This document shows, piece after piece, positions 11,424 to 64,000 of a stretch of DNA of 64,000 nt. The notes beneath the pieces were generated by a model. It saw only the letters and a list, made by a program, of their open reading frames with translations. It searched no databases and had not been told where the DNA came from. The stretch spans positions 3,472,001-3,536,000 of the forward strand of contig NZ_CP020737.1 of the NCBI RefSeq assembly GCF_002097715.1, read 5' to 3'. The DNA comes from Burkholderia ubonensis subsp. mesacidophila (lineage in GTDB: Bacteria; Pseudomonadota; Gammaproteobacteria; Burkholderiales; Burkholderiaceae). Made by a program: the position numbers and the translations under genes. Numbering within the stretch: the first letter of the stretch is position 1; each line of letters starts with the position of its first letter.

Positions 11424-11494
11424 GTTGAATATTCTAATCACTTTATGTCGGGTATTGGCGGGGAAAACCCTGAAAGGCGTCCGAAATATTCAAC
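11424..11494. promoter_or_regulatory. Spaced inverted repeat, candidate PuuR operator
   Basis: GTTGAATATT at 11424-11433 and its exact inverse AATATTCAAC at 11485-11494 flank 51 bp just upstream of puuR. The AT-rich 10-mers stand out in GC-rich surroundings. The spacing would allow looping or two separate half-sites; that PuuR binds here is inference. Confidence 0.45.
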
Positions 11495-11573
11495 ACTTTT
11501 CCGCCATTCCATTCACGCATATTTTATTCGCAGTGCTTCGGGAAAGCCCTGATCGAAGACCATAAAAAAACAT

Positions 11574-11601
11574 TTGACGCCGTTTTTGGCTCGTATATGC
11601 T
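11574..11601 (+). promoter_or_regulatory. Sigma-70 promoter candidate for the puuD-puuA-spuC-pot operon
   Basis: TTGACG, a 16-bp spacer and TATGCT, on the plus strand. This is the best promoter match between puuR and puuD, but it lies about 700 bp before the puuD ATG, implying a very long leader unless a second promoter exists nearer. Confidence 0.5.
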
Positions 11602-13125: not shown

Positions 13126-14463
13126 ATGCACGACATAGACGAATTCCTGAAGAAACACCGCATCACCGAGATCGAAGCGATCATTCCCGACATGGCCGGC
13201 ATCGCGCGCGGCAAGATCACGCCGCGCAACAAGTTCACGTCCGGCGAATCGATGCGGCTGCCGCAGGCCGTGATGGTGCAGACCGTCACCGGCGAATATC
13301 CGGAAGACGGCTCGCTGACCGGCGTGACCGACCCCGACATGGTGTGCGTGCCCGACACGTCGACGATCCGCCTGATCCCGTGGGCGGTCGACCCGACCGC
13401 GCAGGTGATCCACGACTGCGTGCACTTCGACGGCTCGCCGGTCGAGATCTCGCCGCGCTACGTGCTGCGCCGCGTGCTCGACCTGTACAAGGCGAAGGGC
13501 TGGAAGCCGGTGGTCGCGCCCGAGCTCGAGTTCTACCTGGTCGACATGAACAAGGACCCGGACCTGCCGCTGCGCCCGCCCGTCGGCCGCACGGGCCGCC
13601 CCGAAACGGGCCGCCAGTCGTATTCGATCGAGGCGGTCAACGAGTTCGATCCGCTGTTCGAGGACATCTACGAGTACTGCGAATTGCAGGATCTCGACAT
13701 CGACACGCTGATCCACGAGGTCGGCGCCGCGCAGATGGAGATCAACTTCATGCACGGCGACGCGCTGTCGCTCGCGGACCAGGTGTTCCTGTTCAAGCGC
13801 ACGGTGCGCGAGGCCGCGCTGCGTCACAACATGTACGCGACGTTCATGGCCAAGCCGATGGAAGACGAACCGGGTTCGGCGATGCACGTGCACCAGAGCA
13901 TCGTCGACGAGGAAACGGGCCAGAACCTGTTCACGTCGCAGGAGACGGGCGGCGCGACGTCAATGTTCTACAACTTCCTCGCCGGCCTGCAGAAGTACAC
14001 GCCGGCGCTGATGCCGATCTTCGCGCCGTACATCAACTCGTACCGCCGGCTGTCGCGCTTCATGGCCGCGCCGATCAACGTGCAGTGGGGCTACGACAAC
14101 CGCACGGTCGGCTTCCGCATCCCGCACTCGGGCCCGGCCGCGCGCCGCATCGAGAACCGCATCCCGGGCGTCGACTGCAACCCGTACCTCGCGCTCGCCG
14201 CGACGCTCGCGGCCGGCTATCTCGGGATGACGCAGCGCCTCGAGCCGACCGAGCCGCTCGTCAGCGACGGCTACGACCTGCCGTACCAGCTGCCGCGCAA
14301 CCTCGAGGAAGGGCTGACGCTGATGGCCGCCTGCGAGCCGCTCGGCGAAATCCTCGGCCACAAGTTCCTGAAGGCGTATTTCGCACTGAAGGAAACCGAA
14401 TACGAAGCGTTCTTCCGCGTGATCAGCTCGTGGGAACGCCGCCATCTGCTGCTGCACGTGTAA
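13126..14463 (+). CDS. puuA: Gamma-glutamylputrescine synthetase PuuA (SpuB)
   Basis: 445 aa, glutamine-synthetase fold. It ligates glutamate to putrescine using ATP, the committing step of the gamma-glutamylation route. Visible blocks are VVAPELEFYLVD, VGAAQMEINF, the NMYATFMAKPMEDEPGSAMHVHQS segment with its metal and ATP ligands, and RIENRIPGVDCNPYLA. The ATG at 13126 follows a GAGAA ribosome-binding site; the frame is open further upstream only through puuD. It is 28 bp from puuD and 28 bp from the aminotransferase. Related GS-like enzymes act on other polyamines, so the exact amine is not proved. Confidence 0.92.
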   Translation: MHDIDEFLKKHRITEIEAIIPDMAGIARGKITPRNKFTSGESMRLPQAVMVQTVTGEYPEDGSLTGVTDPDMVCVPDTSTIRLIPWAVDPTAQVIHDCVHFDGSPVEISPRYVLRRVLDLYKAKGWKPVVAPELEFYLVDMNKDPDLPLRPPVGRTGRPETGRQSYSIEAVNEFDPLFEDIYEYCELQDLDIDTLIHEVGAAQMEINFMHGDALSLADQVFLFKRTVREAALRHNMYATFMAKPMEDEPGSAMHVHQSIVDEETGQNLFTSQETGGATSMFYNFLAGLQKYTPALMPIFAPYINSYRRLSRFMAAPINVQWGYDNRTVGFRIPHSGPAARRIENRIPGVDCNPYLALAATLAAGYLGMTQRLEPTEPLVSDGYDLPYQLPRNLEEGLTLMAACEPLGEILGHKFLKAYFALKETEYEAFFRVISSWERRHLLLHV

Positions 14464-14491
14464 GCGTGCGCAACCGCCATACGGAGGAAAC

Positions 14492-15919
14492 ATGACATAC
14501 CGCAACGAATCGGCCTGGATCCAGCCCGCCGCGCCGGCGGCCCGCACCGCGCAGGCCCGCACCACCGCCGAATACCGCGCGCTCGACGCCGCGCATCACA
14601 TCCACCCGTTCTCCGACATGGGCGCGCTCAACCGCACGGGAAGCCGCGTGATCGTGAAGGCGGACGGCGTCTATCTGTGGGATTCGGACGGCAACAAGAT
14701 CATCGACGGGATGGCCGGCCTGTGGTGCGTGAACGTCGGCTACGGCCGCAAGGAACTCGCCGACGCCGCGTACCGCCAGCTGCAGGAACTGCCGTTCTAC
14801 AACACGTTCTTCAAGACCACGCATCCGCCGGTGATCGAACTCTCGGCGATGCTCGCGGAAGTCACGCCGCCGGGCTTCAACCACTTCTTCTACTGCAACA
14901 GCGGCTCGGAAGGCAACGACACCGTGCTGCGCGTCGTGCACCAGTACTGGCGCGTGCAGGGCCAGCCGCGGAAGAAATACGTGATCTCGCGCAAGAACGG
15001 CTATCACGGTTCGACCATCGCCGGCGGCACGCTCGGCGGGATGGGCTACATGCACGAGCAGATGCCGTCGAAGGTCGAGCACATCGTGCACATCGACCAG
15101 CCGTACTTCTTCGGCGAAGCGCAAGCCGGCGAAACGCCCGAGGCGTTCGGCCTCGCGCGCGCGCAGCAGCTCGAAGCGAAGATCCTCGAACTCGGCGCGG
15201 AGAACGTCGCCGCATTCATCGGCGAGCCGTTCCAGGGCGCGGGCGGCGTGATCTTCCCGCCGTCGACGTACTGGCCGGAGATCCAGCGGATCTGCCGCAA
15301 GTACGACATCCTGCTCGTCGCCGACGAGGTGATCGGCGGCTTCGGGCGCACCGGCGAATGGTTCGCGCACCAGCACTTCGGCTTCGAGCCGGACCTGATC
15401 ACGCTGGCGAAGGGGCTGACGAGCGGCTACGTGCCGATGGGCGCGGTGGGCATCCACGAGCGCGTCGCGCGGCCGATCATCGACAACGGCGAATTCAACC
15501 ACGGCCTCACCTACTCGGGCCACCCGGTCGCGGCGGCGGTCGCGGTCGCGAACCTGAAGCTGCTGCGCGACGAAGGCATCGTCGCGCGCGTGAAGACCGA
15601 CACGGGCCCGTACTTCCAGGCGCTGATGCGCGAGACCTTCGCGCGCCATCCGATCGTCGGCGAGGTGCACGGCGCGGGCCTCGTCGCGAGCCTGCAGCTC
15701 GCGCAAGCGCCGGCCGAGCGCCGCCGCTTCGCGAACGGCGGCGACGTCGGCACGATGTGCCGCGACTTCTGCTTCAACGGCAACCTGATCATGCGCGCGA
15801 CCGGCGACCGGATGCTGCTGTCGCCGCCGCTCGTGATCTCGCGTCAGGAAATCGACGAACTCGTGTCGAAGGCGAAGAAGGCCGTCGATGCGACCGCCCA
15901 GCAACTGGGTATTTCGTAA
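14492..15919 (+). CDS. spuC: Putrescine-pyruvate aminotransferase SpuC-like
   Basis: 475 aa class-III PLP aminotransferase. D278 in ADEVIGGFGRTG binds the pyridine nitrogen and K307 in TLAKGLTSG forms the Schiff base; YCNSGSEGNDT contacts phosphate. SpuC transfers an amino group from putrescine (or cadaverine/spermidine derivatives) to pyruvate, a route parallel to gamma-glutamylation. Its place directly after puuA and before the polyamine transporter matches Pseudomonas spuABC. Having both routes in one operon gives two exits for putrescine nitrogen. Confidence 0.9.
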   Translation: MTYRNESAWIQPAAPAARTAQARTTAEYRALDAAHHIHPFSDMGALNRTGSRVIVKADGVYLWDSDGNKIIDGMAGLWCVNVGYGRKELADAAYRQLQELPFYNTFFKTTHPPVIELSAMLAEVTPPGFNHFFYCNSGSEGNDTVLRVVHQYWRVQGQPRKKYVISRKNGYHGSTIAGGTLGGMGYMHEQMPSKVEHIVHIDQPYFFGEAQAGETPEAFGLARAQQLEAKILELGAENVAAFIGEPFQGAGGVIFPPSTYWPEIQRICRKYDILLVADEVIGGFGRTGEWFAHQHFGFEPDLITLAKGLTSGYVPMGAVGIHERVARPIIDNGEFNHGLTYSGHPVAAAVAVANLKLLRDEGIVARVKTDTGPYFQALMRETFARHPIVGEVHGAGLVASLQLAQAPAERRRFANGGDVGTMCRDFCFNGNLIMRATGDRMLLSPPLVISRQEIDELVSKAKKAVDATAQQLGIS

Positions 15920-52708: not shown

Positions 52709-54559
52709 TTACAGCAGCGGGCACGCCGTCACCTGCGTGCCGCGCTCGGCGCACAGCCGCTCGTAGTCGCGCAGGTAATCGCGTTCGTCGTCGGTCAGCA
52801 GGTCGAGATCGATCAGGTCCCAGTCGTAGCCGACCGCGACGATGTTCTCGAACGTCATCTTGTCCGGCTCCTGCTCGCTCGGATGGATGATCACGATGTT
52901 CTCGATCCGCACGCCGCCCTTGCCCGGCACGTAGATGCCCGGCTCGACCGAGATCACCGCATTCGGCACGAGACCATACTTCGACCCCGGCGCGAACCGC
53001 ACCCCGCCTTCGTGCACGTGGATCCCGACGCCGTGCCCGGTGCCGTGGCCGAAATCGTGGCCGTGATCGCGGCACACCTGCCGCACGGCCGCATCGACGT
53101 CGCCGCCCGACGCGTCTTTCGGGAACGACGTGACGAGCCCCTTGATGCACGCCTTCAGCGCCACCGTGTAGATCTCCCGCTGCCACGGCTGCGCGACCGT
53201 GTCCGGCCGGGTCCGGCGCAGCACGACGCGCGTGCAGTCCGTCGCGAAGCCGGCTTCGTAGTACGCGCCGCTGTCGAGCAGCACCAGCTCGCCTTCCGTC
53301 AGCTCGACTTCCGGGCTCGCCGCCGTGTAGTGCGCGGACGCGCTGTTGGCGCCGTTCGCCGCGATCGTCGTGAAGGTCAGCGCCACCGCCGAGCGTGCGC
53401 CGTATGCGTCGTTGATCACGCGGGCCAGGTCGTATTCGGAATGCCGCTGCCCCGGCTCGCCCGTCTTCGCCCAGCGCATCGCGTCGGCGATCGCCGCGGA
53501 ACTGCGCACGAACGCGTCGCGGAACTGGTCGAGCACTTCCGGCGTCTTCGCGACCCGCATCGCCTCGACCGGGCTGAAATCGGCATGCCGGGCGTGCGGC
53601 CACACGCGGCTCACCGTCTCGACGAGCGCGCAGTTGACCGACTCGAAGCCGTAGCACACCTGTTCGGCCACGAACTGCGCGAGGAAGCGTTCGAGCTCGT
53701 CGAAGTCACGCCGGATCACCTGCAGCGCCGGATACGATTCGAGGTCGACCGGACAGCGGTCGCAGCCTTCCGGCAGGAACAGCACGACCTGCGCGCCGAC
53801 CACGAACAGGAAGCCCAGGTGCGACGACGCATTCGGGATGTGATAGCCGCGGCTGTTCAGCAGATAGCCGAGGTCGTCCGCCAGGCAGGTGACGAACGCA
53901 GTCCTTCCTTTTGCCGCGCCGGTGTGCGCGGCGAGCCGCTCGCCCAGCGTCGCGATGTTCTGCGCGACGCTCACGCCGGTCATCGATTCCGGCAGCTCGA
54001 AGATCGGCCGCTCGACGACCCAGCCCGGCAGCGCGATCGCCCGGTCGATCTCGCGGCCGACGAGGCTCGTCCAGTCGAACTGCGCCGCCTGCGTGCTGTC
54101 GAGCAGCCGGTCGCGCTGCGCGACGCTGATCCGCAGCCCGTCGTAGCCGACCCGCTTGAGCCGGCCCGCGTGGGCGACGAGCCAGTCGGCCATCGCCGGC
54201 CACATCGACACGTTCAGCCCGAGCTTCTCGACGTGCACGCGCGCCGGATTGCACTGCTTTTCGGCCTGCAGGTGATAGCGGCCGTCGACGAACAGCAGGA
54301 ACTGCGGCACGCCGAGCGCCTGCGCCGCCGCCGCGCTGAGGAAGATGCCGGAGCCTGCCGAGCCGTCGAAGCCCGACAGCGCGTAGCGCTGGTTGTTGCG
54401 GCGCGGCAGGTACTCGGTAATGAATTCGTCCTGCGACGTGATCACCACGGCGTCGAGCTGCACGGCGTCGAGCAGGCGCGACAGGCCTGCGTGTGTCTCG
54501 TCAACGGATGCATCGTAGGGGGGAAGGCCGGAGAAACTGTATTTCAGTTGATCGATCAT
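52709..54559 (-). CDS. Xaa-Pro aminopeptidase (M24B, APP1-like)
   Basis: 616 aa, the long three-domain type. Two creatinase-like domains (about 1-310) precede the pita-bread catalytic domain. Metal ligands are in LLDSGAYYEAGFATDCTR (two Asp), GHGTGHGVGIHVHEG (His), VISVEPGIYV (Glu) and GVRIENIVII (Glu). It removes an N-terminal residue preceding proline in the cytosol, so it would finish peptides brought in by the ABC transporter encoded just upstream. It has its own promoter, which overlaps the shared AT-rich motif described at 54631-54686. Confidence 0.93.
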   Translation of the reverse strand: MIDQLKYSFSGLPPYDASVDETHAGLSRLLDAVQLDAVVITSQDEFITEYLPRRNNQRYALSGFDGSAGSGIFLSAAAAQALGVPQFLLFVDGRYHLQAEKQCNPARVHVEKLGLNVSMWPAMADWLVAHAGRLKRVGYDGLRISVAQRDRLLDSTQAAQFDWTSLVGREIDRAIALPGWVVERPIFELPESMTGVSVAQNIATLGERLAAHTGAAKGRTAFVTCLADDLGYLLNSRGYHIPNASSHLGFLFVVGAQVVLFLPEGCDRCPVDLESYPALQVIRRDFDELERFLAQFVAEQVCYGFESVNCALVETVSRVWPHARHADFSPVEAMRVAKTPEVLDQFRDAFVRSSAAIADAMRWAKTGEPGQRHSEYDLARVINDAYGARSAVALTFTTIAANGANSASAHYTAASPEVELTEGELVLLDSGAYYEAGFATDCTRVVLRRTRPDTVAQPWQREIYTVALKACIKGLVTSFPKDASGGDVDAAVRQVCRDHGHDFGHGTGHGVGIHVHEGGVRFAPGSKYGLVPNAVISVEPGIYVPGKGGVRIENIVIIHPSEQEPDKMTFENIVAVGYDWDLIDLDLLTDDERDYLRDYERLCAERGTQVTACPLL

Positions 54560-54630
54560 CGGATGCCCACATTGTTCATTGTTGTCGGAGGGAGCGCGCG
54601 CGGCGCGCGAACCCGCGGCCAGCGCGCCCC

Positions 54631-54686
54631 AAATTACCGCTCGACCAAAGTTACGTCAAGCTTAAATTTATGCCTTACTTAAATCT
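54631..54686 (-). promoter_or_regulatory. Aminopeptidase promoter with shared operator-like motif (site A)
   Basis: On the minus strand TTGACG (54654-54659), a 17-bp spacer and TAATTT (54631-54636) form a good sigma-70 promoter. Overlapping the -35 are CTTAAATTT (54661-54669) and CTTAAATCT (54678-54686), 17 bp apart on the plus strand. The same pair with the same spacing occurs at 61733-61758 and 61910-61935. The outer half-site overlaps the stop codon of the upstream ATPase gene. Confidence 0.6.
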
Positions 54687-55455
54687 GCGCGAGCGGCCTT
54701 TCGGGTGGTCTTTCCGGCGCGCCGAACAGCGCGCGCGCCGCCGGATGGCTGCCGCCCGCCGACAGCCCCGCGCGGTCGAGCTGCTCGACGATGCGGCCGC
54801 GCTCCATCACCGCCACCCGGTCGCACAGGTGGCTGACCACGCCGATGTCGTGGCTGACGAACAGGTAGCCGATGTCGAACTCGCGCTTGAGCGCCGCCAG
54901 CAGGTTGAGGATCTCGGCCTGCACGGACGCGTCGAGCGCGGAGGTCGGCTCGTCGAGCAACAGGAGCCGCGGCTCCAGCACCAGCGCACGGGCGATCGCC
55001 ACCCGCTGGCGCTGCCCGCCCGACAACTGGTGCGGATAGCGGTAGCGAAAGCGCGCGCCGAGCCCCACCAGGTCGAGCACCCGGCTCACCCGTTCGTTGA
55101 CGCGGTCGAAGCCGTGATGCCGCAACGGCTCGGCCAGCGTCCGGTCGATCGTGTGCTTCGGGTGCAGCGAGCCGTACGGATCCTGGAACACCATCTGCAC
55201 GGCGCGCGCATGGCCTCGCCCCGGCGGCGCGCCGTCGCGGCGCACCGCGCCGTCGACGTCGAGCTCGCCGCGCCACGCGTCCTCGAGCCCGGCGAGCACC
55301 CGCAGGACGGTCGACTTGCCGCAGCCGGAGCCGCCGACCAGGCCGAAGGTCTCGCCGCGCGCGACGTCGAACGACACGTCCGCGACGGCGTCGAACGCGC
55401 CGCGCCGCGTGTGATACCGCACCGACAGGCCGGTGCATCGGAGAAGCAGGGTCAT
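54679..55455 (-). CDS. Peptide ABC transporter ATPase (OppF/DppF type)
   Basis: 258 aa from ATG 55455 (GGGAG upstream). Walker A GGSGCGKST, Q-loop VFQDPYGSLHPKHTI, signature LSGGQRQRVAIARAL, Walker B LLLLDEPTSALD, and H-loop VSHDIGVV. VFQDPYGSL and the ALKREFDIGYLFVSHD segment are typical of the OppF half. It lies 4 bp after its partner ATPase and is the last gene of the porin/GAF/transporter operon. Confidence 0.92.
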   Translation of the reverse strand: MTLLLRCTGLSVRYHTRRGAFDAVADVSFDVARGETFGLVGGSGCGKSTVLRVLAGLEDAWRGELDVDGAVRRDGAPPGRGHARAVQMVFQDPYGSLHPKHTIDRTLAEPLRHHGFDRVNERVSRVLDLVGLGARFRYRYPHQLSGGQRQRVAIARALVLEPRLLLLDEPTSALDASVQAEILNLLAALKREFDIGYLFVSHDIGVVSHLCDRVAVMERGRIVEQLDRAGLSAGGSHPAARALFGAPERPPERPLAQI

Positions 55456-55459
55456 GAGG

Positions 55460-56326
55460 TCAGCTCCCGTTGGCGGAAAGAACGTCGCGCGCGCCGTCGA
55501 GCCGCGCACGATCCAGCACCGGCAGCGTCGTGCCGCGCGTCGCGGCGGACGGCAGGCAGTCGAGCAGCCCGCGCGTGTACGGATGACGCGCGTCGAACAG
55601 CCGGTCGCCGCGGCATTCCTCGACGACGCGGCCGCGGTACATGATCAGCACCCGGTCGCAGAAGCGCGCGACCATCCGCAGGTCGTGGCTGATCAGCAGC
55701 AGCCCCATCCGGCGCGTGTCGATCTCGCGGCTCAGCAGCGCGAGCACCTGGTCGCGCACCTGCACGTCGAGCGCGGAGGTCGGCTCGTCGGCGATCAGGA
55801 GCTGCGGCGACGCCGCCAGCATCGCGGCGATCATCGCGCGCTGGCCGATGCCGCCCGACAGCTGGTGCGGATACGCGCCGGCCACGCGCTCCGGATCGGC
55901 GACGCCGACCTCGGCGAGCAGCGCCAGCACCTTCGCGCGCGCGTCGCCCTTGCCGAACGCGCGATGCAGCAGCCCCGCCTCGGCGACCTGCTCGCCGATC
56001 CGGCGCACCGGATTCAGCGAATACTTCGGGTCCTGCAGCACCAGCCCGATGCCGCTGCCGCGCAAGCGCCGCCAGCCGCGCTCGGACAGCCCGAGCAGGT
56101 CCTGCCCGCCGAATTCGAGCCGCGCGGCGCGCACCCGCCCGGGCGCGCGCACCAGCCCCATCAGCGCGCGAGCCGTCATCGACTTGCCCGAGCCGGATTC
56201 GCCGACGATGCCGACGCGTTCGCAGCCGATCCGCATCGACAGGTGCTGCACGACGTCGACGTCGCCGCGCAGGGTCGGATAGGTGACCGACAGGTCTTCC
56301 ACGATGAGCTCACGCATGTTTGGCAT
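55460..56326 (-). CDS. Peptide ABC transporter ATPase (OppD/DppD type)
   Basis: 288 aa from ATG 56326, or 285 aa from ATG 56317; both overlap the end of the permease gene. Walker A GESGSGKS, Q-loop VLQDPKYSLNP, signature LSGGIGQRAMIAAML, Walker B LLIADEPTSALD, H-loop ISHDLRMV. The C-terminal HPYTRGLLDCLPS is the OppD tail. With the OppF-type subunit it forms the heterodimeric motor of the importer. Confidence 0.92.
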   Translation of the reverse strand: MPNMRELIVEDLSVTYPTLRGDVDVVQHLSMRIGCERVGIVGESGSGKSMTARALMGLVRAPGRVRAARLEFGGQDLLGLSERGWRRLRGSGIGLVLQDPKYSLNPVRRIGEQVAEAGLLHRAFGKGDARAKVLALLAEVGVADPERVAGAYPHQLSGGIGQRAMIAAMLAASPQLLIADEPTSALDVQVRDQVLALLSREIDTRRMGLLLISHDLRMVARFCDRVLIMYRGRVVEECRGDRLFDARHPYTRGLLDCLPSAATRGTTLPVLDRARLDGARDVLSANGS

Positions 56327-57203
56327 CCAGCAGGTCGCGCAGGCCGTCGCCCAGCAGGTTGAAGGCCAGGCTCGTGAGCAGGATCGCCGCGCCCGGCGCG
56401 GCCGCCACCCACCACTGGTCGAAGATGTACTGCCGGCCGTTCGCGATCATCGCGCCCCACTCGGACATCGGCGGCTGCGCGCCGAGGCCGAGAAAGCCGA
56501 GCCCCGCGGCGGTCAGGATGATGCCGGCCATGTCGAGCGTCACGCGGATGATCGACGACGGCAGGCACATCGGCAGCACCTGGCCGAGCAGCACCCGCCA
56601 GGTCGGCAGGCCGAGCGCGCGCGCGGCGAGCACGAACTCGCTGCGCCGCACGACGCGCGTTTCGGTGCGCGCGATGCGCGCATACGCGGGCCATGCGGTC
56701 ATCGCGATCGCGAGCACCGCGTTCTCGATGCCCGGCCCGAGCAGCGCGACGAACGCCAGCGCGAGCACGAGGCGCGGAAACGCCATGAACACGTCGGTCA
56801 CGCGCATCAGCACCGCGTTCGCCCAGCCGCCGAAGTAGCCGGCGCAGATGCCCGCGGCCATCCCGAACGGCGCCGACAGCAGCGACACGAGCGCGACGAT
56901 CGCCAGCGTCGGACGCGCGCCGTGGATCGTGCGCGCCCACAGGTCGCGCCCGAGCTGGTCGGTGCCCAGCCAGTGCGCGGCGCCGGGCGGCGCGAGCCGC
57001 TGCGCGATGTCCTGCGCATTCGGATCGCAGCCCGCGAGCGCGGGCGCGAACGCCGCGCACGCGAGCAGCGCCGCCACCACCGCGGCGCCGAACAGGATCG
57101 CGGGATTGCGGCGCGCGCGACGCCACGCGCGATAGGCCGCGCCGCAGCGGGCCTGCCAGGTGCTTGCCGGCGCATCGTCCGCCAGCCATGTCATCAGGTT
57201 CAT
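56310..57203 (-). CDS. Peptide ABC transporter permease (OppC/DppC type)
   Basis: 297 aa from ATG 57203, overlapping the previous permease by ATGA. An OppC-N helix (NPAILFGAAVVAALLACAAFAPAL) is followed by a periplasmic loop with HWLGTDQLGRDLWARTIHGARPTL, diagnostic of the DppC/OppC family. The EAA-loop is ALGLPTWRVLLGQVLPMCLPS. It ends FNLLGDGLRDLLDAKHA. Confidence 0.92.
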   Translation of the reverse strand: MNLMTWLADDAPASTWQARCGAAYRAWRRARRNPAILFGAAVVAALLACAAFAPALAGCDPNAQDIAQRLAPPGAAHWLGTDQLGRDLWARTIHGARPTLAIVALVSLLSAPFGMAAGICAGYFGGWANAVLMRVTDVFMAFPRLVLALAFVALLGPGIENAVLAIAMTAWPAYARIARTETRVVRRSEFVLAARALGLPTWRVLLGQVLPMCLPSSIIRVTLDMAGIILTAAGLGFLGLGAQPPMSEWGAMIANGRQYIFDQWWVAAAPGAAILLTSLAFNLLGDGLRDLLDAKHA

Positions 57204-58279
57204 TCGGACCTCGGCTCGATCAGATGGGAAAGGAAATCGGCGCACGCGTTCAGCGTGACGAACGCCAGGCCGATCAGCAGCGTGCCGCCCAGCACCGCGG
57301 GCATGTCCGCCGCGAACAGCGCGTTCGTCATGTAGAGCCCGATGCCCTGCCACGAGAACACCGTCTCGGTGAGCACCGCGCCTTCGAGCAGCATCGCGTA
57401 CGACAGCGCGATCACCGTCACGAGCGGCGCGGCGATGTTGGGCATCACGTGCCGCCACAGCAGGTGCGCGGTGGGCGCGCCCTTCGCGCGCGCGGTGAGC
57501 ACGTACTCCTTGCCGAGCTCCTCGAGCGTCAGCGCGCGCGTGATGCGCGCGATGTACGCGATCGAGAAGAACGCCAGCAGCGCCACCGGCAGCACGAGGT
57601 GCCGCACCGCATTGCCGAACGCCTCCACGTTCCCCGCGCGCAGCGTATCGATCAGCATCGCGTTGCTCCACGCGGGCACCGTGTACAGGTACACGTCGTC
57701 GAGCCGCCCGGGCCCCGCCACCCATCCGAGCTTCGAATAGAAGACGAGGAGCCCCATCAGCCCGAGCCAGAACACCGGCACCGAGTAGCCGACGAGCGCC
57801 ACGATCCGGATCGCGTGATCGGCGGCCCGGTTGTGGCGCTGCGCGGCCCACACGCCCGCGGGCACGCCGAGCAGCACGCCGAGCAGGATCGCCAGCGTGG
57901 CCAGCTCGAGCGTCGCGGGGAAGTAGGTCAGCAGGTCGACGAGCACCGGTCGGCCGGTGCTCGTCGACTGCCCGAGATCGCCGTGCAGCGCGTCGCGCAC
58001 GTAGCGGACGAACTGCACGGCCAGCGGCCGGTCGAGCCCCATCGCATGACGGGCGGCCCGGTAGGTCTCGGGCGATGCGTGATCGCCCACCACCTTCAGC
58101 ACCGGGTCGATCGGCGATGCGCGGCCGATCAGGAACGTGACGAGCAGCAGGCCGAGCGACGTGAGCGCGAGCGCGCCCAGCGCGCGGCCGAGGCCGGTCG
58201 CACACCGCCGGACGGCGGATCGGAGCGATCCGCCGTCCGGCGACGCGCCGGCCAAAGTGGAAGCCGGCGCGCGCGTCAT
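57200..58279 (-). CDS. Peptide ABC transporter permease (OppB/DppB type)
   Basis: 359 aa from ATG 58279, overlapping the binding-protein stop by ATGA. Six membrane segments; the first (ALALTSLGLLLVTFLIGRAS) is preceded by a 30-residue cytosolic stretch. Family features: HAMGLDRPLAVQFVRYVRDALHGDLGQS, and the EAA loop ARAKGAPTAHLLWRHVMPNIAAP. It pairs with the OppC-type permease. Confidence 0.92.
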   Translation of the reverse strand: MTRAPASTLAGASPDGGSLRSAVRRCATGLGRALGALALTSLGLLLVTFLIGRASPIDPVLKVVGDHASPETYRAARHAMGLDRPLAVQFVRYVRDALHGDLGQSTSTGRPVLVDLLTYFPATLELATLAILLGVLLGVPAGVWAAQRHNRAADHAIRIVALVGYSVPVFWLGLMGLLVFYSKLGWVAGPGRLDDVYLYTVPAWSNAMLIDTLRAGNVEAFGNAVRHLVLPVALLAFFSIAYIARITRALTLEELGKEYVLTARAKGAPTAHLLWRHVMPNIAAPLVTVIALSYAMLLEGAVLTETVFSWQGIGLYMTNALFAADMPAVLGGTLLIGLAFVTLNACADFLSHLIEPRSE

Positions 58280-59850
58280 TTCGACACCCCCGCGTACTGG
58301 ATCAGGTCGGGCGTCAGGCCGACCGCGAACCCCTTGACGTTGCCGCGCACCGCCACCTGGCTCAGCTCCTGGAACGTCACGACGATCGGCGAATTGCGCT
58401 GGACCTCGCGCTGGATCGCCTGGTAGTCCGCCGCGCGGCGCGCCGGATCGCGCGCCTGCAGCGCGGCCGTGGTGCGCCGGCTCAGCTCGGGCACGAGCCA
58501 CGCGTTGCGCCACGCGGTCGTGCTCTGCGGATTCGCGTCGCCGTTGTCGACGTTGTACGCGAACGACTTCGCATTCGCATGCGGGTCGAAGTAGTCGGCG
58601 CCCCAGTACAGCAGCATCGCCTCATGCGCGCGCGCACGATAGCGCGTGATGACCTGCGCGCCCGTGCCGGGCAGCAGGTTCAGCCTGATCCCGCCCTTCG
58701 CGAAGCTGGCCTGCATCGATTGCGCGATGTCGAGAAAGCGCGGCGTGTTGATCACGTCGAGATCGATGCTCAGGTTCTTCACGCCGGCGCGCTCGAGAAT
58801 CGCGCGCGCCTTCTGCGGATCGAAGCGGTACGGGTTGTCGTTCAGCGCGCCCGCGAAGCCGCTCGGCAGGAACGCCTGATGCACCGTCAGCTGCCCCTTC
58901 TGCAGATGGCCGGCAATGCCGTCGTAGTCGACCAGGTAACGCAGCGCCTGCCAGATCGCGGGATTGCGCAGCTTCGCGTGCGTCAGGTTGAGGCTCACGA
59001 AATGCACGATCGCCTGCGGCGAGGTCTGCACCCGCACGCCCGGCTTGCCCTGCAGCGCGGCGATCTGGTCGGGACCAAGATCGCGCGCGACGTCCGCATC
59101 GCCCGATTCGAGCGCAAGCCGCTGCGTCGCCGCTTCGGCCACGTTCTTCATCAGCACCGTGCGGATCGCCGGCGCGCCCGCCGGGGACAGCGGATTCGCG
59201 TCGAGGATCACCACCTCCTTCGGCTTGTACAGCTTCAGCGCATAGCTGCCGCTGCCGGCCGAATGCGCCTGCAGCCACGCATTGCCGAGATCGCCGCGGC
59301 TGTCGTGCGCGGCCACCGTCGCCTGGTCGACGATCGACGCGGGCCGCGACGCCAGCAGGTTCAGCACGAACGCCGCGCCGAACTCGCCCTGCCACGCGAC
59401 GCTGAGCGTCTGCGCCCCCGTCCTGCGCACCATTTGCGCGAGATTCGCGCTCGTCCAGCCGAGCTGCGTGAGGATGAACGCCGGGGCCTTGTTCAGCACG
59501 ACGACGCGCCGGAACGAATACACGACGTCCTCGGGCCGCACCGGATTGCCCGATGCGAACTTCGCGCCCGGCTTCAGCACGAAGTCGATCGAGCGGCCAT
59601 CGCGCCCGACGCTCCAGCTCGCGGCCAGCCCGGGCCGCACGTTGTTCGGGTCGGCGGGATCGTACTGCACGAGGTTCTGGTACAGGTTGGCCCCGAGCTC
59701 CATGCTCGTCAGCTCGTAGCTTTCGGCGGGGTCCAGGCTCACGATGTCCTCGATGTTCTTGACGACGACGAGCATGTCCCTCGGCGTCACGGCCATGGCT
59801 CCCTGCACGAGCAGCGCAAGGCCGATCAGGAAAGTCAGAATGTGTCTCAT
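58276..59850 (-). CDS. Periplasmic peptide-binding protein (SBP family 5)
   Basis: 524 aa from ATG 59850. Signal peptide MRHILTFLIGLALLVQGAMA. The mature protein has the family-5 hallmarks: NIEDIVSLDPAESYELTSMELGANLYQNLV, FVLKPGAKFASGNPVRPEDVVYSFRR, and the C-terminal YWGADYFDPHANAKSFAYN. Ligands of this family include di- and oligopeptides, nickel and opines; the nearby aminopeptidase favours peptides. It is 32 bp downstream of the GAF gene. Confidence 0.92.
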   Translation of the reverse strand: MRHILTFLIGLALLVQGAMAVTPRDMLVVVKNIEDIVSLDPAESYELTSMELGANLYQNLVQYDPADPNNVRPGLAASWSVGRDGRSIDFVLKPGAKFASGNPVRPEDVVYSFRRVVVLNKAPAFILTQLGWTSANLAQMVRRTGAQTLSVAWQGEFGAAFVLNLLASRPASIVDQATVAAHDSRGDLGNAWLQAHSAGSGSYALKLYKPKEVVILDANPLSPAGAPAIRTVLMKNVAEAATQRLALESGDADVARDLGPDQIAALQGKPGVRVQTSPQAIVHFVSLNLTHAKLRNPAIWQALRYLVDYDGIAGHLQKGQLTVHQAFLPSGFAGALNDNPYRFDPQKARAILERAGVKNLSIDLDVINTPRFLDIAQSMQASFAKGGIRLNLLPGTGAQVITRYRARAHEAMLLYWGADYFDPHANAKSFAYNVDNGDANPQSTTAWRNAWLVPELSRRTTAALQARDPARRAADYQAIQREVQRNSPIVVTFQELSQVAVRGNVKGFAVGLTPDLIQYAGVSK

Positions 59851-59882
59851 GATTTGATTTCTCGAATGTGTGTGGTGTCGCG

Positions 59883-60332
59883 TCATTTCCCCGAGCCGGC
59901 GGCGGCCGAGAGAAATGCTTGAACGGCGCCGTGCGCCAACCGCTCGCAGGTCGGCAGCACCGATTCGGCATAGGCATGGCACCGGTCGAGCAGGTTGATC
60001 GTCCCGAGCACGTGTCCGTCGTGTATGACGGGCACGTTGATCGCGCTGCCGAGGCCCATCGCCACGATCTTTTCGTGATCCGCATAGAACGCGCGAAACT
60101 CGTCCGGCTGCCGGGCGAGAAAACTTCGCTGCTCGACCACCACGCGCGTGTACCACGCGTCGCGCAGCATCGGCTTGCGCCCGGTGAGCGGATAAGCACG
60201 CTCGTCGTTGCTGTAGATGCGTTCCGCTTCGCCGCCCGAGGCGACGATGCGCATCGCGGTGAACAGTCGGTGTCCGACCGTCCGTTGAAAAGCGTCTTCC
60301 ACGTGTTTGAACCAATCGTTTGCCGTACTCAT
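59883..60332 (-). CDS. Stand-alone GAF-domain protein
   Basis: 149 aa. A single GAF domain fills the protein: an N-terminal helix DWFKHVEDAFQRTVGHRLFTAMRI, then YTRVVVEQRSFLARQ, and MGLGSAINVPVIHDGHVLGTINLLDRCHAY, closed by a C-terminal helix. There is no output domain, so it would act as a ligand-binding protein or through a partner. It lies between the porin and the binding-protein genes, a rare place for a GAF protein; a sensor or feedback role for the transported ligand is inference. Confidence 0.82.
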   Translation of the reverse strand: MSTANDWFKHVEDAFQRTVGHRLFTAMRIVASGGEAERIYSNDERAYPLTGRKPMLRDAWYTRVVVEQRSFLARQPDEFRAFYADHEKIVAMGLGSAINVPVIHDGHVLGTINLLDRCHAYAESVLPTCERLAHGAVQAFLSAAAGSGK

Positions 60333-60385
60333 GGCCGTCCTGTGTGCTGTGATGCGCGCACGCGGGCGCCGTACGCGGCACCCGG

Positions 60386-61510
60386 TTAGAAGAAATGGAA
60401 CATGCCGAGCCGCACGACGGTCTGCTGATTCGACGTGGACGGCGCGAAGCTGTAGCCCACGACCGGATCGACGCCCGCCGATGCCCTCAGGTATTCCCCG
60501 CCCAGATAAAGGCTGGTCTGCTTCGACAGCGCGTACCACAGCCCGGCCGTGAACTGATTCCACGCGTGCTGCTCGAAGGTGTCGCGCTGGTAGCCGCCGT
60601 AGAACGTCCAGGTGGGCGCGATTTCGTAGCGCAGCCCGCCCTCGTAGACGTTGAAGGACGATCGGCGGCCGAAGCCTTCGATCGCGTTGTGCGTGACGTC
60701 CGCATAGAGCGTCAGCGCCTTGGTCGCCGCATAGCTCGCGCCGATGCCCGCGACCTTGCTCGACTCGACGACGAGCGACGGCGCGACGTCGGTGCGCGCG
60801 CCGGTGGCGGGATTGACGGTGGCGGTGGTTTGCCCGAGGAAGCGCGACAGCCCGGTGGCCGCATACGGATCGAGCACCGGCTTGAACAGCGCCGCGTAGG
60901 CGACGCCGATCTTGAACGCGCCGCGCGCGTACTGCGCGCCGAACGTGTACGCGCTGCCGTCGTGGACATTGCCCGGGCGGTTGCTGAACGAGTAGAGGCC
61001 GCCGAAGCTGAACCCCGAGTAGTCGACGCTCATGAACTTCACGGCGTTGTCGAGGCGCTCGCCCGCCAGGCGGTCGTAATCGCCCTGGTGCGTGCCGTAG
61101 CCGGTGCCGTTCAGGCCGACCGCGAACTGCGTGAGGAAGTCGCAGATCGAATCGTATTGACGGCCGAAGGTGATCGTGCCGTAATCGCTCGACAAGCCGA
61201 CGAAGGCTTGCCGGCCGAAGGCCAGCCCGCCCTGCCCGAGTTGCCCCGTGCCGAGCCGGTAGCCGCCCTCCAGCGTGAAGATCGCCTTCACGCCGCCGCC
61301 CAGGTCTTCGCTGCCCTTCAACCCCCAACGGTTGCCGAACATCACGCCGTCGTCCATCTTCAAGTTGTGCGAACCGCCTTCGTTCGTCACGTAGGTCAAA
61401 CCGGAATCGATCTCGCCGTATAGCGTGACCGAGCTCTGGGCCCGCGCCACCGGCGCGTGACACGCCCATGCCGCCACCGCTGCCGCGACCGCTGCTTTCA
61501 ACACATTCAT
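60386..61510 (-). CDS. Gram-negative porin, first gene of the transporter operon
   Basis: 374 aa from ATG 61510; the longer frame to 61720 runs through the promoter. The signal peptide ends ARA-QSSVTLYG. Barrel hallmarks are NRWGLKGSEDLGGGVKAIFTLEGGY and FVGLSSDYGTITFGRQYDS; the last residues GMFHFF end in Phe. It belongs to the same family as the porin at 29296-30429 but is clearly divergent, with different loops. Its link to a peptide ABC transporter suggests a specific outer-membrane entry route. Confidence 0.9.
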   Translation of the reverse strand: MNVLKAAVAAAVAAWACHAPVARAQSSVTLYGEIDSGLTYVTNEGGSHNLKMDDGVMFGNRWGLKGSEDLGGGVKAIFTLEGGYRLGTGQLGQGGLAFGRQAFVGLSSDYGTITFGRQYDSICDFLTQFAVGLNGTGYGTHQGDYDRLAGERLDNAVKFMSVDYSGFSFGGLYSFSNRPGNVHDGSAYTFGAQYARGAFKIGVAYAALFKPVLDPYAATGLSRFLGQTTATVNPATGARTDVAPSLVVESSKVAGIGASYAATKALTLYADVTHNAIEGFGRRSSFNVYEGGLRYEIAPTWTFYGGYQRDTFEQHAWNQFTAGLWYALSKQTSLYLGGEYLRASAGVDPVVGYSFAPSTSNQQTVVRLGMFHFF

Positions 61511-61730
61511 GCTTATCTCCAAGCCGTCCTTGCGTTGTGTCTTGCGAATTCCGGAACGGCTCGCCAGCAGCGACATGCACTTGCCCCGCGTGCGCGCTCC
61601 GGTGCCTCTGCCAGGGTGTTCGAGCGGCGCGCGTGACAGGCGTCGCGCCGCCCGCAGACCGGCCAACGGGCCTTGCCTGGTCGGCGTCGGACGCATGCCC
61701 GCGGGCGATCTGCGGGCCAAGTTTTTACCG

Positions 61731-61760
61731 GACTAAAATTTTAGTCAAGCTAAAATTTTG
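61731..61760. promoter_or_regulatory. Shared operator-like motif at the porin promoter (site B)
   Basis: AAATTTTAG (61736-61744) and CTAAAATTT (61750-61758) are exact 9-bp inverted arms around TCAAG; GACTAAAATTTTAGTC (61731-61746) is itself a 16-bp palindrome. CTAAAATTT also recurs at 61733-61741, 17 bp from the second copy. On the minus strand TTGACT (61743-61748) is embedded and could be the -35 of the porin operon, with a weak -10 about 61722-61727. Confidence 0.6.
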
Positions 61761-61905
61761 ACGCGGTTTCGCAGGGATTCGCGCGTGTCACGATCGTCCA
61801 TAAATCGATAAATAGCCCTTTAAACAAGGGGTATTTCTCATTTCACGCCACTGGAATCCGACGCTGCGAAGACGGATGGAACAGCGCGCCAGACGCGCCG
61901 CCCGC

Positions 61906-61935
61906 TTGACTTTGATTTTAGTGACGCTTAAATTT
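61906..61935 (+). promoter_or_regulatory. ATP-grasp gene promoter with shared motif (site C)
   Basis: TTGACT (61906-61911), a 17-bp spacer and TAAATT (61929-61934) make a good sigma-70 promoter. The half-sites CTTTGATTT (61910-61918) and CTTAAATTT (61927-61935) cover the -35 edge and the -10, again 17 bp apart, so a bound protein would block polymerase. The start of the gene is 38 bp downstream. Confidence 0.65.
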
Positions 61936-61973
61936 CAGACGGCAGTCCACCCCGCCCATTCTCTGGAGCCTTC

Positions 61974-63293
61974 ATGCTTTCGCATACCAACGAAGCATTC
62001 ATGGAAGCCATCACGGCGAAGCGCCGCACGATCGTCGCGCGCGGCGCGCGCCGCCACGCGCAAGACTGGCTCGATGCGCTCGAAGCCCGCCTGTACGTCG
62101 CCCTCCCGCAGCCCGTGCTGATCGACCGCACCGATTACGAGCGGCTCGGCGCGGCGGCCCGCGCGTTGTTGTCCGCGCAACTGAAGATCGCCCGGCACCT
62201 GGTGAGCACCCAGTCGCGCGAAGCGCTGCTGCGGCGCTTCCGGGTGCCCGACCACATGGCGCGCTTCGTCGACTGGGATAAATTCCAGACGGGCGCGATG
62301 ACCGTCGCGCGCATGGACATCGTGCCGACGGCCGACGGCTACCAGTTCTGCGAATTCAACGTGCATTCGGCCGTCGGCGGCGCGGAAAGCCACGGCTGCT
62401 ACCTGCACTTTTGCCGCGCGCTCGGCCTGCCCGCCGACAGCCAGGCACGTTCGCCCGACTACCATCTCGCGCAGATGTACACCCGCATCGCGCAGGCGCG
62501 CGGCATCGAGCGGATCGTGATCCTCGATTCCGTGCACCATGCGTCGCTCGGCTATCCGCGCCACGACGATCTCGCCGCGCTGCTGCGGCAGATGAATCCC
62601 GGCTGCGAGGTCGCGAATCACCGCGAAGACACCTACCCCGAAGCATGGCTCGCCCGCGAGCTGGGCGAGCGCACGCTCGTGCACCGGATGTTCACGTACG
62701 ACGAGATCACCGACGGCTGCGCGTTCCTCGCGCGGCTTGCCGACAGCGGCGCGGTGATCACGAACACGTTCGAAGCGGAAATGCGGATGAGCAAGCTATG
62801 GCTTGCGCTGCTGTGGGACGACCGGTACGGCGCGCTGCTCGACGATGCCGAGCGGGAAGCGGTCAGGCGCTACGTGCCGCCGACCTACGCGCTGACCGAG
62901 GACAACCTGGGCGCGTTCCTCGCCGAGCGTGCGCAATGGGTCTTCAAGTTCAACCACTCGTACGGCGGCGAGGGCGTGCTGATCGGCGCATCCACGTCGG
63001 CGGACGAGCTGGAACGCGCGATTCGCGAGAAAGGGATCGAGAACTGGATCGTGCAGCGCTTCGTCGAGGCGGAAACGCTCACCATGCCCTACGACGACAG
63101 CGACGCCGTCGCGCCGCACCATCTCGTGCTCGGCCTGTACGTGCACGACGGCCATACCTGCGGCTTCTTCGTGCGCGGCAGCGCGTCGTCGCGCGTGGTC
63201 AACCTGTCGAGCGGCGCGGGCAAGATGGCGTGGGGCCTCGTGCTCGACGCGCCGGCGCGTCAGCACTTCATCGATCGGATTCGACAGCTGTAG
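61974..63293 (+). CDS. Stand-alone ATP-grasp enzyme, possible peptide-bond ligase
   Basis: 439 aa with TGGAG seven bases before ATG 61974. YQFCEFNVHSAVGG resembles the Glu-x-Asn metal-binding strand of circularly permuted ATP-grasp enzymes (glutathionylspermidine synthetase-like). WVFKFNHSYGGEGVLIG is the Lys/Gly-rich ATP-binding loop, and NWIVQRFVE the second ATP strand; SRVVNLSSGAGK is a late glycine motif. Such enzymes join a carboxylate to an amine through an acyl phosphate. I do not recognise the exact family. Its stop lies 26 bp inside the convergent MFS gene. Confidence 0.75.
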   Translation: MLSHTNEAFMEAITAKRRTIVARGARRHAQDWLDALEARLYVALPQPVLIDRTDYERLGAAARALLSAQLKIARHLVSTQSREALLRRFRVPDHMARFVDWDKFQTGAMTVARMDIVPTADGYQFCEFNVHSAVGGAESHGCYLHFCRALGLPADSQARSPDYHLAQMYTRIAQARGIERIVILDSVHHASLGYPRHDDLAALLRQMNPGCEVANHREDTYPEAWLARELGERTLVHRMFTYDEITDGCAFLARLADSGAVITNTFEAEMRMSKLWLALLWDDRYGALLDDAEREAVRRYVPPTYALTEDNLGAFLAERAQWVFKFNHSYGGEGVLIGASTSADELERAIREKGIENWIVQRFVEAETLTMPYDDSDAVAPHHLVLGLYVHDGHTCGFFVRGSASSRVVNLSSGAGKMAWGLVLDAPARQHFIDRIRQL

Positions 63294-64000
63294 CCCGGCC
63301 GGGGCCGCGTGCGGCTTGCCGCGCGCGGGCCGCCTGCCGGACGTGCAGCGCGGCGAACGCCAGCGCCATCGCCGCGAGAAAGCCCGCCATGACCGCGAAA
63401 GTCTGGCCGAACGCCAGCACGAAGCCCGCGCGGTCGTCCGCCGCGCCAGGCGCGCCGCCCAGCCCGTCGAGATAGGCGGCATGGCGGATCCCGACGAGCG
63501 CCGTCAGCAGCGCCACGCCGATCGCCCCGCCGAGGCTGCGCGAGATGTTGAAGAGAATCGACGCGGACGGCGCATCGTGCTTGACCGTCGCCGTCGTCGC
63601 GAGCACGCCGAGCGGCGTCAGCATCAGCGTGAAGCCGAGCCCGCGCAGCAGCTGCGCGACGACCACCGACGCATAGCTGAAATCCGCCGCGGCCATGCTC
63701 CACATCCACGCGCTGACGCACGACAGCAGCGCGCCCACGACGACCAGCACGTGAACGTGCACACGTTTCAGGATGCGCGGGATGAAGCCGAGGATCGACA
63801 GTTGCACCGCACCGCCGTACAGGATCACGAGGCTGATCTGCGCGGGCGTGTAGCGCTGCAGCTCGATCAGGAAATACGGCACGAGAAAGTAGGTGCCGAA
63901 GACCGCGGCGCCCGTCGTCACGTTCGCCGCGCACGCGATCCGCAGTTGCCGGTTCGCGAGCAGGCCGAGCGCGACGAGCGGGTGCGCGCTCGCCCGCTCG
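63268..64000 (-). CDS. DHA2-family (EmrB/QacA-like) MFS exporter, N-terminus beyond window
   Basis: About 244 codons of the C-terminal half are visible; the start is past the right edge. Six or seven hydrophobic segments with LLRGLGFTLMLTPLGVLATTATV and ASILFNISRSLGGAIGVALLTALV, typical of 14-helix drug/proton antiporters. The reading continues through 63921 (a GTG inside the gene, not its start). It ends 26 bp inside the convergent ATP-grasp gene. It may export the product of that enzyme, or be an ordinary multidrug pump. Confidence 0.85.
   Translation of the reverse strand, partial: ERASAHPLVALGLLANRQLRIACAANVTTGAAVFGTYFLVPYFLIELQRYTPAQISLVILYGGAVQLSILGFIPRILKRVHVHVLVVVGALLSCVSAWMWSMAAADFSYASVVVAQLLRGLGFTLMLTPLGVLATTATVKHDAPSASILFNISRSLGGAIGVALLTALVGIRHAAYLDGLGGAPGAADDRAGFVLAFGQTFAVMAGFLAAMALAFAALHVRQAARARQAARGPGRATAVESDR

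Follow-up and report, generated by a model that had tools for sequence, protein, structure and literature searches.

What is the function of a locus that combines genes for a peptide importer, a peptidase and a ligase? These genes occupy the last part of a 64,000-nucleotide stretch of Burkholderia ubonensis subsp. mesacidophila DNA, which was analysed as a whole (the window). The region is probably the import part of a single unit for the synthesis, export and uptake of peptide-like compounds. This would be an NRPS-free pseudopeptide cluster that also does without ribosomes, within a PsdR-type regulon.

The Importer Operon and Its Peptidase

An earlier note had described a seven-gene operon (porin, GAF protein, binding protein, two permeases and two ATPases) with an adjoining peptidase gene. 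The genes are real and the observation was confirmed:

52709..54559, minus strand: M24 metallopeptidase, XPNPEP1-like three-domain Xaa-Pro aminopeptidase (Pfam M24 E 1.6e-44 and two creatinase N-terminal domains)
54679..55455, minus strand: importer ABC ATPase 2, Dpp/Opp type (profile matches)
55460..56326, minus strand: importer ABC ATPase 1 (profile matches)
56310..57203, minus strand: importer permease C (top NCBIfam model a D,D-dipeptide permease, below its cut-off)
57200..58279, minus strand: importer permease B (profile matches)
58276..59850, minus strand: periplasmic binding protein, SBP_bac_5 (Pfam E 3.4e-61; N terminus signal-peptide-like by eye)
59883..60374, minus strand: small stand-alone GAF-domain protein (GAF_2 E 1.5e-6; ATG start probably at 60332)
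60386..61510, minus strand: porin (Porin_4), which opens the importer operon (profile match)

The closest PDB match of the M24 peptidase was 3ctz (Xaa-Pro aminopeptidase 1, E 1.5e-44), and no signal peptide was seen by eye. The presumed metal-ligand motifs are preserved in each of the two M24 proteins encoded by this genome. In the PDB, the binding protein is related to 7kz8, 8upi and 1dpp, which bind dipeptides or are of the peptide/nickel type. The best binding protein was at most 45% alike in 63 of 65 genus genomes, the exceptions being the own genome and genome G062, which have the close importer; orthologues of the GAF protein were found in the same two of the 65 genomes, besides four weaker matches. 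Among the matches listed, binding proteins 60-69% alike were present on many other contigs.

A Biosynthetic Run Past the Window End

Synthesis had been ascribed to one ATP-grasp enzyme. This part of the earlier proposal had to be given up, because a large pathway lies outside the window; as the window ends mid-system, only the import half had been caught. Fifteen genes on one strand form a run from 63268 to 79357 in window numbering (16.1 kb, 15.4 kb of it past the window) with intergenic gaps of -4 to 125 bases, and the gene of an XRE-cupin regulator follows just outside the window. Two features are located at the border:

61974..63293, plus strand: ATP-grasp ligase, glutathione/glutathionylspermidine-synthetase fold (predicted model and VIA-align fold match)
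63268..64000, minus strand: MFS 1, 3′ portion (whole gene 63268-64725), final gene of the 15-gene run

The run encodes two alpha-oxoamine synthases (AOSa and AOSb), an isopropylmalate-synthase-like enzyme (LeuA-like), CitE-like and MaoC proteins, an OCD protein, Fe/2OG oxygenases, a desaturase-like hydroxylase, a second M24 peptidase and two MFS proteins. Pfam scans covered the nine window genes and 17 further locus genes, including XRE-cupin and PALP. The aldolase-type CitE-like gene matched HpcH/HpaI (PF03328, E 3.2e-22; L001:17634-18476), the MaoC dehydratase matched PF01575 (E 1.3e-17), and the regulator has HTH_3 and Cupin_2 domains (L003:4147-4974). The OCD/mu-crystallin-type protein was the sole candidate at the locus for a dehydrogenase role, and glycosyltransferase, sulfotransferase and NRPS families were not detected at the locus in these scans. 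Bulgecin and isosulfazecin, which strain ATCC 31433 produces according to the abstract of PMC5472815, were considered as products of the locus but set aside.

AOSa and AOSb scored 504 and 473 bits on PRK07505, above the cut-off of 342, and what is presumably the lysine motif is kept in both. The top PDB relative of both was 8xha (E 1.3e-97 and 1.6e-86), which is Alb29 in the accessible part of PMC11906848. This L-glutamate-using alpha-oxoamine synthase of albogrisin is the closest solved relative over nearly the whole length, a likeness at the level of the enzyme. The desaturase-like protein matched NF041365 (GntB family) over its full length with 311 bits, below the curated cut-off of 380, and the guanitoxin L-arginine gamma-hydroxylase GntB is thus no more than a relative of this protein. 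An Fe/2OG dioxygenase fold with HxD...H was present in DUFb, and DUFa was assigned via 43% identity.

The ATP-grasp ligase belongs to a rare family, with 16 homologues at E≤0.001 among 8000 scored candidates; within the genus there were three weak matches (E 4e-11 to 2e-4). Its identity to the glutathionylspermidine synthetase/YgiC family, which has another gene neighbourhood, was 13-16% in structure alignments, and the domains ATP-grasp_4 and LAL_C2 of the bacilysin-type L-amino-acid ligase were absent from it in the Pfam scan. In all seven Corallococcus loci the gene lies directly downstream of DUFb, hydrolase, AOSb, OCD and 2OGb, and therefore it belongs with the biosynthetic set. In Trinickia it is grouped with AOSa, CitE, MaoC and OCD. 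An LAL_C2 L-amino-acid ligase gene comes next after it in Corallococcus locus L007, and the start of the same gene is visible in L008. In genome G035 the ligase (41%) adjoins a 2OG-FeII_Oxy_3 gene near a transposase-like rve gene, and the other cluster genes were absent from 20 kb around it.

Ligase and oxygenases might also make a small metal chelator for export by MFS proteins and re-import through an ABC transporter of the Opp/Nik type, comparable to staphylopine-like opines. In the staphylopine layout MFS export lies beside Opp-type import, as is the case here, and the importer subunits score on NikA, NikC and Opp-nickel models. However, these scores are below the curated cut-offs (NikA 114.6 versus 393, CntA 52.5 versus 800, with CntC, CntD and CntF under theirs too), nicotianamine-synthase, opine-dehydrogenase and TonB-receptor families were not found in Pfam scans of the island, and the operator is PsdR-like (see below). 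A metallophore is very improbable and was set aside on account of the importer scores and the absent enzymes.

Candidate PsdR-Type Operators at Five Promoters

That three units share an operator had been proposed before. The proposed element matches the published PsdR palindrome, and on sequence evidence the set could be extended to five promoters, with candidate operators at the peptidase, importer, ATP-grasp and PALP genes and a weaker one at the biosynthetic operon. Those in the window are:

54651..54682, no strand: peptidase operator, a pair of PsdR-type palindromes 17 bases apart, TTACGTCAAGCTTAA and TTATGCCTTACTTAA (identical in B. ubonensis)
61723..61754, no strand: porin-importer operator, the palindromes TTTTACCGGACTAAA and TTTAGTCAAGCTAAA 17 bases apart (kept in B. 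ubonensis, flank partly diverged)
61917..61931, no strand: ATP-grasp operator, TTTAGTGACGCTTAA (kept in B. ubonensis except spacer bases)

The exact sequence GTCAAGCTWAAATTT occurs three times in 7.84 Mb, always at this locus. With at most one mismatch, the PsdR palindrome was found three times in the window versus 0.04 expected, every time at these promoters. Compared with TTAAG-N5-CTTAA, the PALP site is perfect, the M24 and ATP-grasp sites have at most one mismatch, and the porin site has two mismatches but is symmetric. The best match at the biosynthetic promoter was weak (8/10 of TTWAG-N5-CTWAA), and other 8/10 matches occur elsewhere. When up to two mismatches were allowed, six sites were found genome-wide, fewer than with a reversed-pattern control (nine), so that only exactness and clustering are unusual. 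A palindrome centred on AAATTT was rejected as operator unit; the PsdR palindrome fits better, and its tandem copies create the AAATTT form.

According to the available text of PMC10965056 and PMC7901475, a metallo-dipeptidase and a dipeptide-binding protein are under repression by PsdR. The locus shares with the PsdR-mdpA-dppA3 regulon of Pseudomonas aeruginosa an XRE-cupin regulator, a neighbouring metallopeptidase, a dipeptide-type binding protein and TTAAG-N5-CTTAA palindromes, but is larger by a biosynthetic operon, the ATP-grasp ligase and a complete ABC importer. The M24 and SBP_bac_5 genes behind the operators correspond by family to the two PsdR targets, MdpA and DppA3. A search for the XRE-cupin protein in 274 genomes of the class (E≤1e-25) yielded none beyond the own genome and two distant genomes.

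An Island Between Peptidase and Regulator

In all seven island-free relatives that were read, the peptidase and regulator genes adjoin with the operator between them, and the XRE-cupin gene adjoins cca in 11 of 12 relatives. In the own genome about 25 kb are inserted precisely between the two. The island flanks were aligned to two relatives only (L071 and L075); in these alignments the biosynthetic operon begins at the ancestral operator array, and on the M24 side the alignment continues into unrelated sequence, making that junction a rough one. The island gives the impression of having been built into a resident regulon, with a defined point of insertion. One point of the earlier proposal is to be corrected here: the M24 peptidase gene is apparently a resident one, adjoining the regulator gene in relatives without the island.

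These observations also fit plain dipeptide nutrition, in which XRE-cupin, M24 and importer would serve dipeptide catabolism as a PsdR-type regulon, while a biosynthetic cluster unrelated to them merely inserted in their midst and acquired the promoter: the trio of peptidase, operator and regulator without an island, the neighbourhood of cca and the start of the biosynthetic operon at the old array all speak for it. Other genomes bear on this reading from both sides.

Linkage of Import and Synthesis in Other Genomes

Genome G687, from another family, was picked out by the binding protein alone, which at E≤1e-175 was found only there and in the own genome among 399 genomes of the order. AOSa at E≤1e-60 was present in the own genome, in G687 (75%) and in three genomes of another family (42-48%). 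One stretch of G687 carries XRE-cupin and, on the synthesis side, AOSa, DUFa, desaturase, ATP-grasp (36%), MaoC, the second M24, one 2OG, CitE, LeuA-like, hydrolase, OCD and one MFS gene, and on the import side the first M24, GAF (43%), SBP, permeases and ATPases; a porin homologue was not found in the G687 stretches. Operator-like sites precede AOSa (9/10) and, weakly, the M24-importer operon (8/10). In a further lineage SBP (74%), ATP-grasp (67%) and DUFb (68%) all have one 26142-base contig fingerprint (sources lgn and ena). For ligase homologue P0003, as close as P0002 of that lineage, no fingerprint-matched binding protein was among the best 120 of 2642.

Importer homologues were not found (tblastn, E≤1e-5) in the seven Corallococcus loci, three of which reach just 2.5-4.9 kb downstream, in Trinickia, in two Legionella loci and in G035, and therefore the importer is not required by every ligase relative. 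The expected co-occurrence of ATP-grasp and transporter genes was thus seen in G687 and, by contig fingerprint, in a further lineage, but not in Corallococcus (7/7) and Trinickia, which have biosynthetic genes without the importer. The latter is in line with dipeptide nutrition. In contrast, the linkage of regulator, peptidase, importer and biosynthetic genes in G687, the shared fingerprint of importer and ligase, the own operators at the ATP-grasp and PALP genes, and the lack of a close importer in nearly all genus genomes argue against it, and this reading is unlikely. At the level of sequence, support is good both for the linkage of the genes, found in the own genome, in B. ubonensis, in G687 and (by contig fingerprint) in a further lineage, and for their shared operators. 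Of the original idea of import, synthesis and export, one regulated unit is supported by the G687 linkage and the operator-like sites, and synthesis by a single enzyme is not.

Comparison With Known Systems

The available portion of PMC11943689 gives as ktm genes an aldolase, a dehydratase, a PLP C-acyltransferase, an ATP-grasp ligase, an amidinotransferase and a dehydrogenase (ktmF), and names ketomemicins and arphamenines as the only known natural ketomethylene pseudopeptides. By predicted enzyme type, the locus resembles the ketomemicin/arphamenine system in the NRPS-free combination of an aldolase, a dehydratase, a PLP C-acyltransferase and a putative ATP-grasp peptide ligase in one cluster. 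It differs in its LeuA-like enzyme, OCD, four predicted Fe/2OG oxygenases, desaturase-like hydroxylase, two M24 peptidases, importer, PsdR-type operators and a ligase of the glutathionylspermidine-synthetase fold. In the nine genes of the window and the 17 others of the locus, Pfam revealed no counterpart of the amidinotransferase, and there is none of ktmF at the locus unless OCD serves. In open-licence PMC literature the gene set was not found described, the matches being on Pantoea ananatis or off topic, which is a weak test of absence; among the pseudopeptide papers listed there, none was on Burkholderia by title. Since a comparable set of enzymes is present in Burkholderia and in a second family, and its core also in Corallococcus and Trinickia, the ketomethylene pseudopeptide class could prove to be wider.

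Arphamenines inhibit aminopeptidase B (PMC11943689, same portion), and the product might likewise inhibit aminopeptidases, the M24 genes providing spare targets instead of processing enzymes and the importer sensing or scavenging the own inhibitor. Two M24 peptidases are within the unit both here and in G687. However, the argument is one of analogy alone, and the intact metal-site motifs in both M24 proteins of the own genome mark neither as resistant. Furthermore, three ketomemicins were inactive on aminopeptidase B in that portion of PMC11943689. Such self-protection is quite improbable.

A Possible Mechanism

For the preferred reading of a pseudopeptide cluster in a PsdR-type regulon, we infer product, ligand, chemistry, recapture and regulator binding as follows. 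The PsdR-type XRE-cupin regulator would bind tandem TTWAG-N5-CTWAA palindromes at the five promoters, by analogy as a repressor. An acyl-CoA would be assembled from a 2-oxo acid and acetyl-CoA by the isopropylmalate-synthase-like, CitE-like and MaoC enzymes, and the Alb29-type alpha-oxoamine synthases would join it to an amino acid, forming a C-C bond with loss of CO2. Fe/2OG and desaturase-type oxygenases may oxidise the intermediate, the ATP-grasp ligase would couple it via an amide bond, and the two MFS proteins would export the product. A dipeptide-like ligand, either the product or dipeptides from outside, would be sensed by the regulator, and the promoters would open. The importer would take in peptides, which the M24 peptidases would cleave for amino acid supply or product recycling; a peptide may thus be imported and hydrolysed while a related compound is made.

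It is tempting to speculate about a closed circuit, although this is rather unlikely: an NRPS-free ketomethylene-type pseudopeptide would be exported, re-imported by the Dpp-like importer and the GAF protein, and sensed by XRE-cupin, with the aminopeptidases under the same operator as target or off-switch. The island would then have tapped a resident dipeptide regulon by taking the peptidase promoter and bringing matching operators. Through its tie to a peptide importer, a peptidase and operators of the PsdR type, the cluster lends itself to a direct test of whether the product is sensed and recaptured.

Most of the biosynthetic genes lie beyond the window edge

All genes named in the earlier note were found and were intact from 52709 to the end of the window (G000:C1:3472001-3536000; genome total 7,840,830 bases, 4 contigs). 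The synthesis half that it had proposed was present, but instead of the ATP-grasp ligase alone it consists of a large pathway located outside the window. A minus-strand run of 15 genes starts at 63268 and is 16.1 kb long, with intergenic gaps of -4 to 125 bases; 15.4 kb of it, and with it most of the system, are hidden by the window edge. A divergent XRE-cupin regulator gene and a PALP gene follow, and then cca.

52709..54559, minus strand: M24 peptidase no. 1
54679-61510, minus strand: importer operon (porin, GAF protein, binding protein, permeases, ATPases)
61974..63293, plus strand: ATP-grasp ligase
Run from 63268, minus strand, part 1: two MFS transporters, OCD, Fe/2OG oxygenase a (2OGa), desaturase-like hydroxylase, DUFa
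Run, minus strand, part 2: alpha-oxoamine synthases a and b (AOSa, AOSb), alpha/beta hydrolase, LeuA-like enzyme, DUFb
Run, minus strand, part 3: CitE-like enzyme, Fe/2OG oxygenase b (2OGb), second M24 peptidase, MaoC

The paralogue identities (AOSa/AOSb 48%, DUFa/DUFb 43%, 2OGa/2OGb 57%, MFS pair 46%) indicated that the run holds two parallel sets. The Pfam scan matched no family to DUFa or DUFb. The predicted structure of DUFb resembles Fe/2OG dioxygenases, and an HxD motif and two histidines are kept across 36 sequences. Among the matches listed, this family (alignment A2), which has no Pfam entry and an Fe/2OG-dioxygenase-like fold, had 119 homologues, many in Streptomyces, Kitasatospora, Embleya and alphaproteobacteria.

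Judged by sequence, the ABC importer is of the Dpp/Opp type: its subunits matched peptide/nickel-class NCBIfam models, every score shown lying below the model cut-off, and a PDB comparison relates its binding protein to solved binding proteins of peptide and dipeptide type. Comparison with PDB relatives identified M24 no. 1 as a three-domain, XPNPEP1-like Xaa-Pro aminopeptidase. It retains the metal-ligand motifs.

Importer and biosynthetic genes co-occur in some lineages

Among 399 genomes of the order, the binding protein was found at E<=1e-175 only in the own genome and in G687, a genome of another family; AOSa at E<=1e-60 occurred in these two and in 3 genomes of one other family (42-48%). 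A single G687 stretch encodes the XRE-cupin regulator (63%), AOSa (74%), DUFa, the desaturase, ATP-grasp (36%), a MatE transporter, MaoC, M24 no. 2, one 2OG, CitE, LeuA-like enzyme, hydrolase, OCD, one MFS, a second HpcH enzyme, M24 no. 1 (58%), GAF (43%), binding protein (65%), permeases and ATPases. A porin gene is absent from it, and AOS, DUF and 2OG are single copy each. The best database binding protein after B. ubonensis was P0137 (74%); its record agrees with those of ligase P0002 (67%) and DUFb P0018 (68%) in longest contig (26142) and sources, from which we infer that the three lie on one contig. For P0003, the other near ligase, no such partner was present among the 120 matches listed. 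The importer half is tied to biosynthesis in some lineages. The proposed coupling of import, synthesis and export thus held in a second family, but not for every ligase relative: no importer homologue was detected at E<=1e-5 in the stretches of Corallococcus, Trinickia, Legionella and the genus genome G035, 3 Corallococcus loci extending just 2.5-4.9 kb downstream. No report on this gene set was found in the literature searched.

The ATP-grasp ligase is part of a biosynthetic set

The ligase family is rare: of 8000 candidates scored, 16 were homologous at E<=0.001, and 6 of 65 genus genomes gave matches at this threshold, 3 strong (own, G062, G035 at 41%) and 3 weak. A contig scan yielded 11 loci (B. 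ubonensis 1, Corallococcus 7, Legionella 2, Trinickia 1). At all seven Corallococcus loci DUFb, hydrolase, AOSb, OCD and 2OGb precede the ligase, and in Trinickia it is grouped with AOSa, CitE, MaoC and OCD (35%). The gene is therefore part of a biosynthetic set. Neither Legionella locus showed a further cluster member in the stretches compared, and none of the remaining cluster genes surrounds the G035 relative (L045).

Several neighbouring genes were also recorded. In Corallococcus L007 an L-amino-acid ligase gene directly follows ATP-grasp, with a divergent ketosynthase gene upstream (1922-4681 and 11360-12541). In Trinickia fusca (L015:1487-5536, 9137-9895) genes for a DmpG-type HMGL, a carbamoyltransferase and a short-chain dehydrogenase adjoin the core, suggesting another product. 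The Legionella relatives (L013, L014; L. drozanskii, L. gresilensis) have 30-31% identity. In G035 (L045 = G035:C2:8001-28000; 8622-10638 and 14022-15821) a small 2OG-Fe oxygenase gene adjoins, and a transposase-like (rve) gene is nearby.

By structure alignment, the ligase is predicted to share its fold with YgiC, glutathionylspermidine synthetase and glutathione synthetase; from this fold and its family, the enzyme likely forms an amide bond. A 2-oxo acid and acetyl-CoA would be condensed first, the alpha-oxoamine synthases would form a C-C bond, and oxidation and then amide ligation would follow in this putative order. Import and M24 cleavage would recycle the product or supply precursors. 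According to PMC11943689, ketomemicin clusters comprise an aldolase, a PLP C-acyltransferase, a dehydratase, an ATP-grasp ligase, an amidinotransferase and a dehydrogenase; this locus has counterparts of four of the six, with the ligase corresponding by fold class only. The closest solved relative of AOSa/AOSb is Alb29, which uses L-glutamate according to PMC11906848.

The island adjoins a probably resident peptidase and regulator

All seven island-free relatives read have the order FlgN, (esterase in 4), M24, XRE-cupin, cca, and their M24/XRE-cupin gap holds the 15-mer operator at 0-2 mismatches. Of 12 genus relatives, 11 have XRE-cupin next to cca. The esterase-to-cca distance is 3.1-3.3 kb in 4 relatives versus 29 kb in the own genome. 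In alignments with two relatives, homology on the XRE side continues across the ancestral operator array as far as the start of MaoC and on the M24 side fades about 60 bases or less from the start codon; about 25 kb thus lie between, and the biosynthetic operon occupies the former peptidase promoter. The peptidase, which the earlier note counted with the system, looks like a resident gene. A close binding protein together with AOSb occurs in 2/65 genus genomes, a distribution that gain by insertion fits. Loss from an older complete cluster would instead agree with peptidase, regulator and cluster staying together in G687.

Operators shared by the promoters

The whole genome has three exact copies of GTCAAGCTWAAATTT, one each ahead of peptidase, porin and biosynthetic operon, and 3 further sites have 2 mismatches, 2 of them inside this locus. 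Its reversed control pattern gave 9 genome sites at <=2 mismatches, so that the operator count by itself is no evidence. The PsdR site, given as TTAAG-N5-CTTAA in PMC10965056, was found in the window at <=1 mismatch at 3 sites (2 in the peptidase promoter, 1 in the ATP-grasp promoter; expected 0.04), and one perfect and one 1-mismatch site precede PALP in L003, past the window. All 4 window matches to TTWAG-N5-CTWAA at >=9/10 lie at these promoters; the best match at the biosynthetic promoter reached only 8/10, a score also found at 3 other window places. The copies before M24, porin and PALP are spaced 16-17 bases. The operators are kept in B. ubonensis. In G687 the gap separating AOSa from XRE-cupin contains 9/10 matches, and one of 8/10 lies ahead of the M24-importer operon. 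The position of the operators and the analogy with PsdR suggest that the XRE-cupin protein binds them. PsdR-type control, as described in PMC7901475 and PMC12021273, suggests by analogy that dipeptide-like ligands may derepress the locus.

Upstream of the PALP gene (L003:5297-6259), in the region 5043-5090, lies the only PsdR-type palindrome at the locus that was found to be perfect; the gene itself is missing between XRE-cupin and cca in 7/7 relatives read. A second XRE-cupin regulator gene lies in the window at 10813-11364, near a glutamine-synthetase-family gene (13126-14463).
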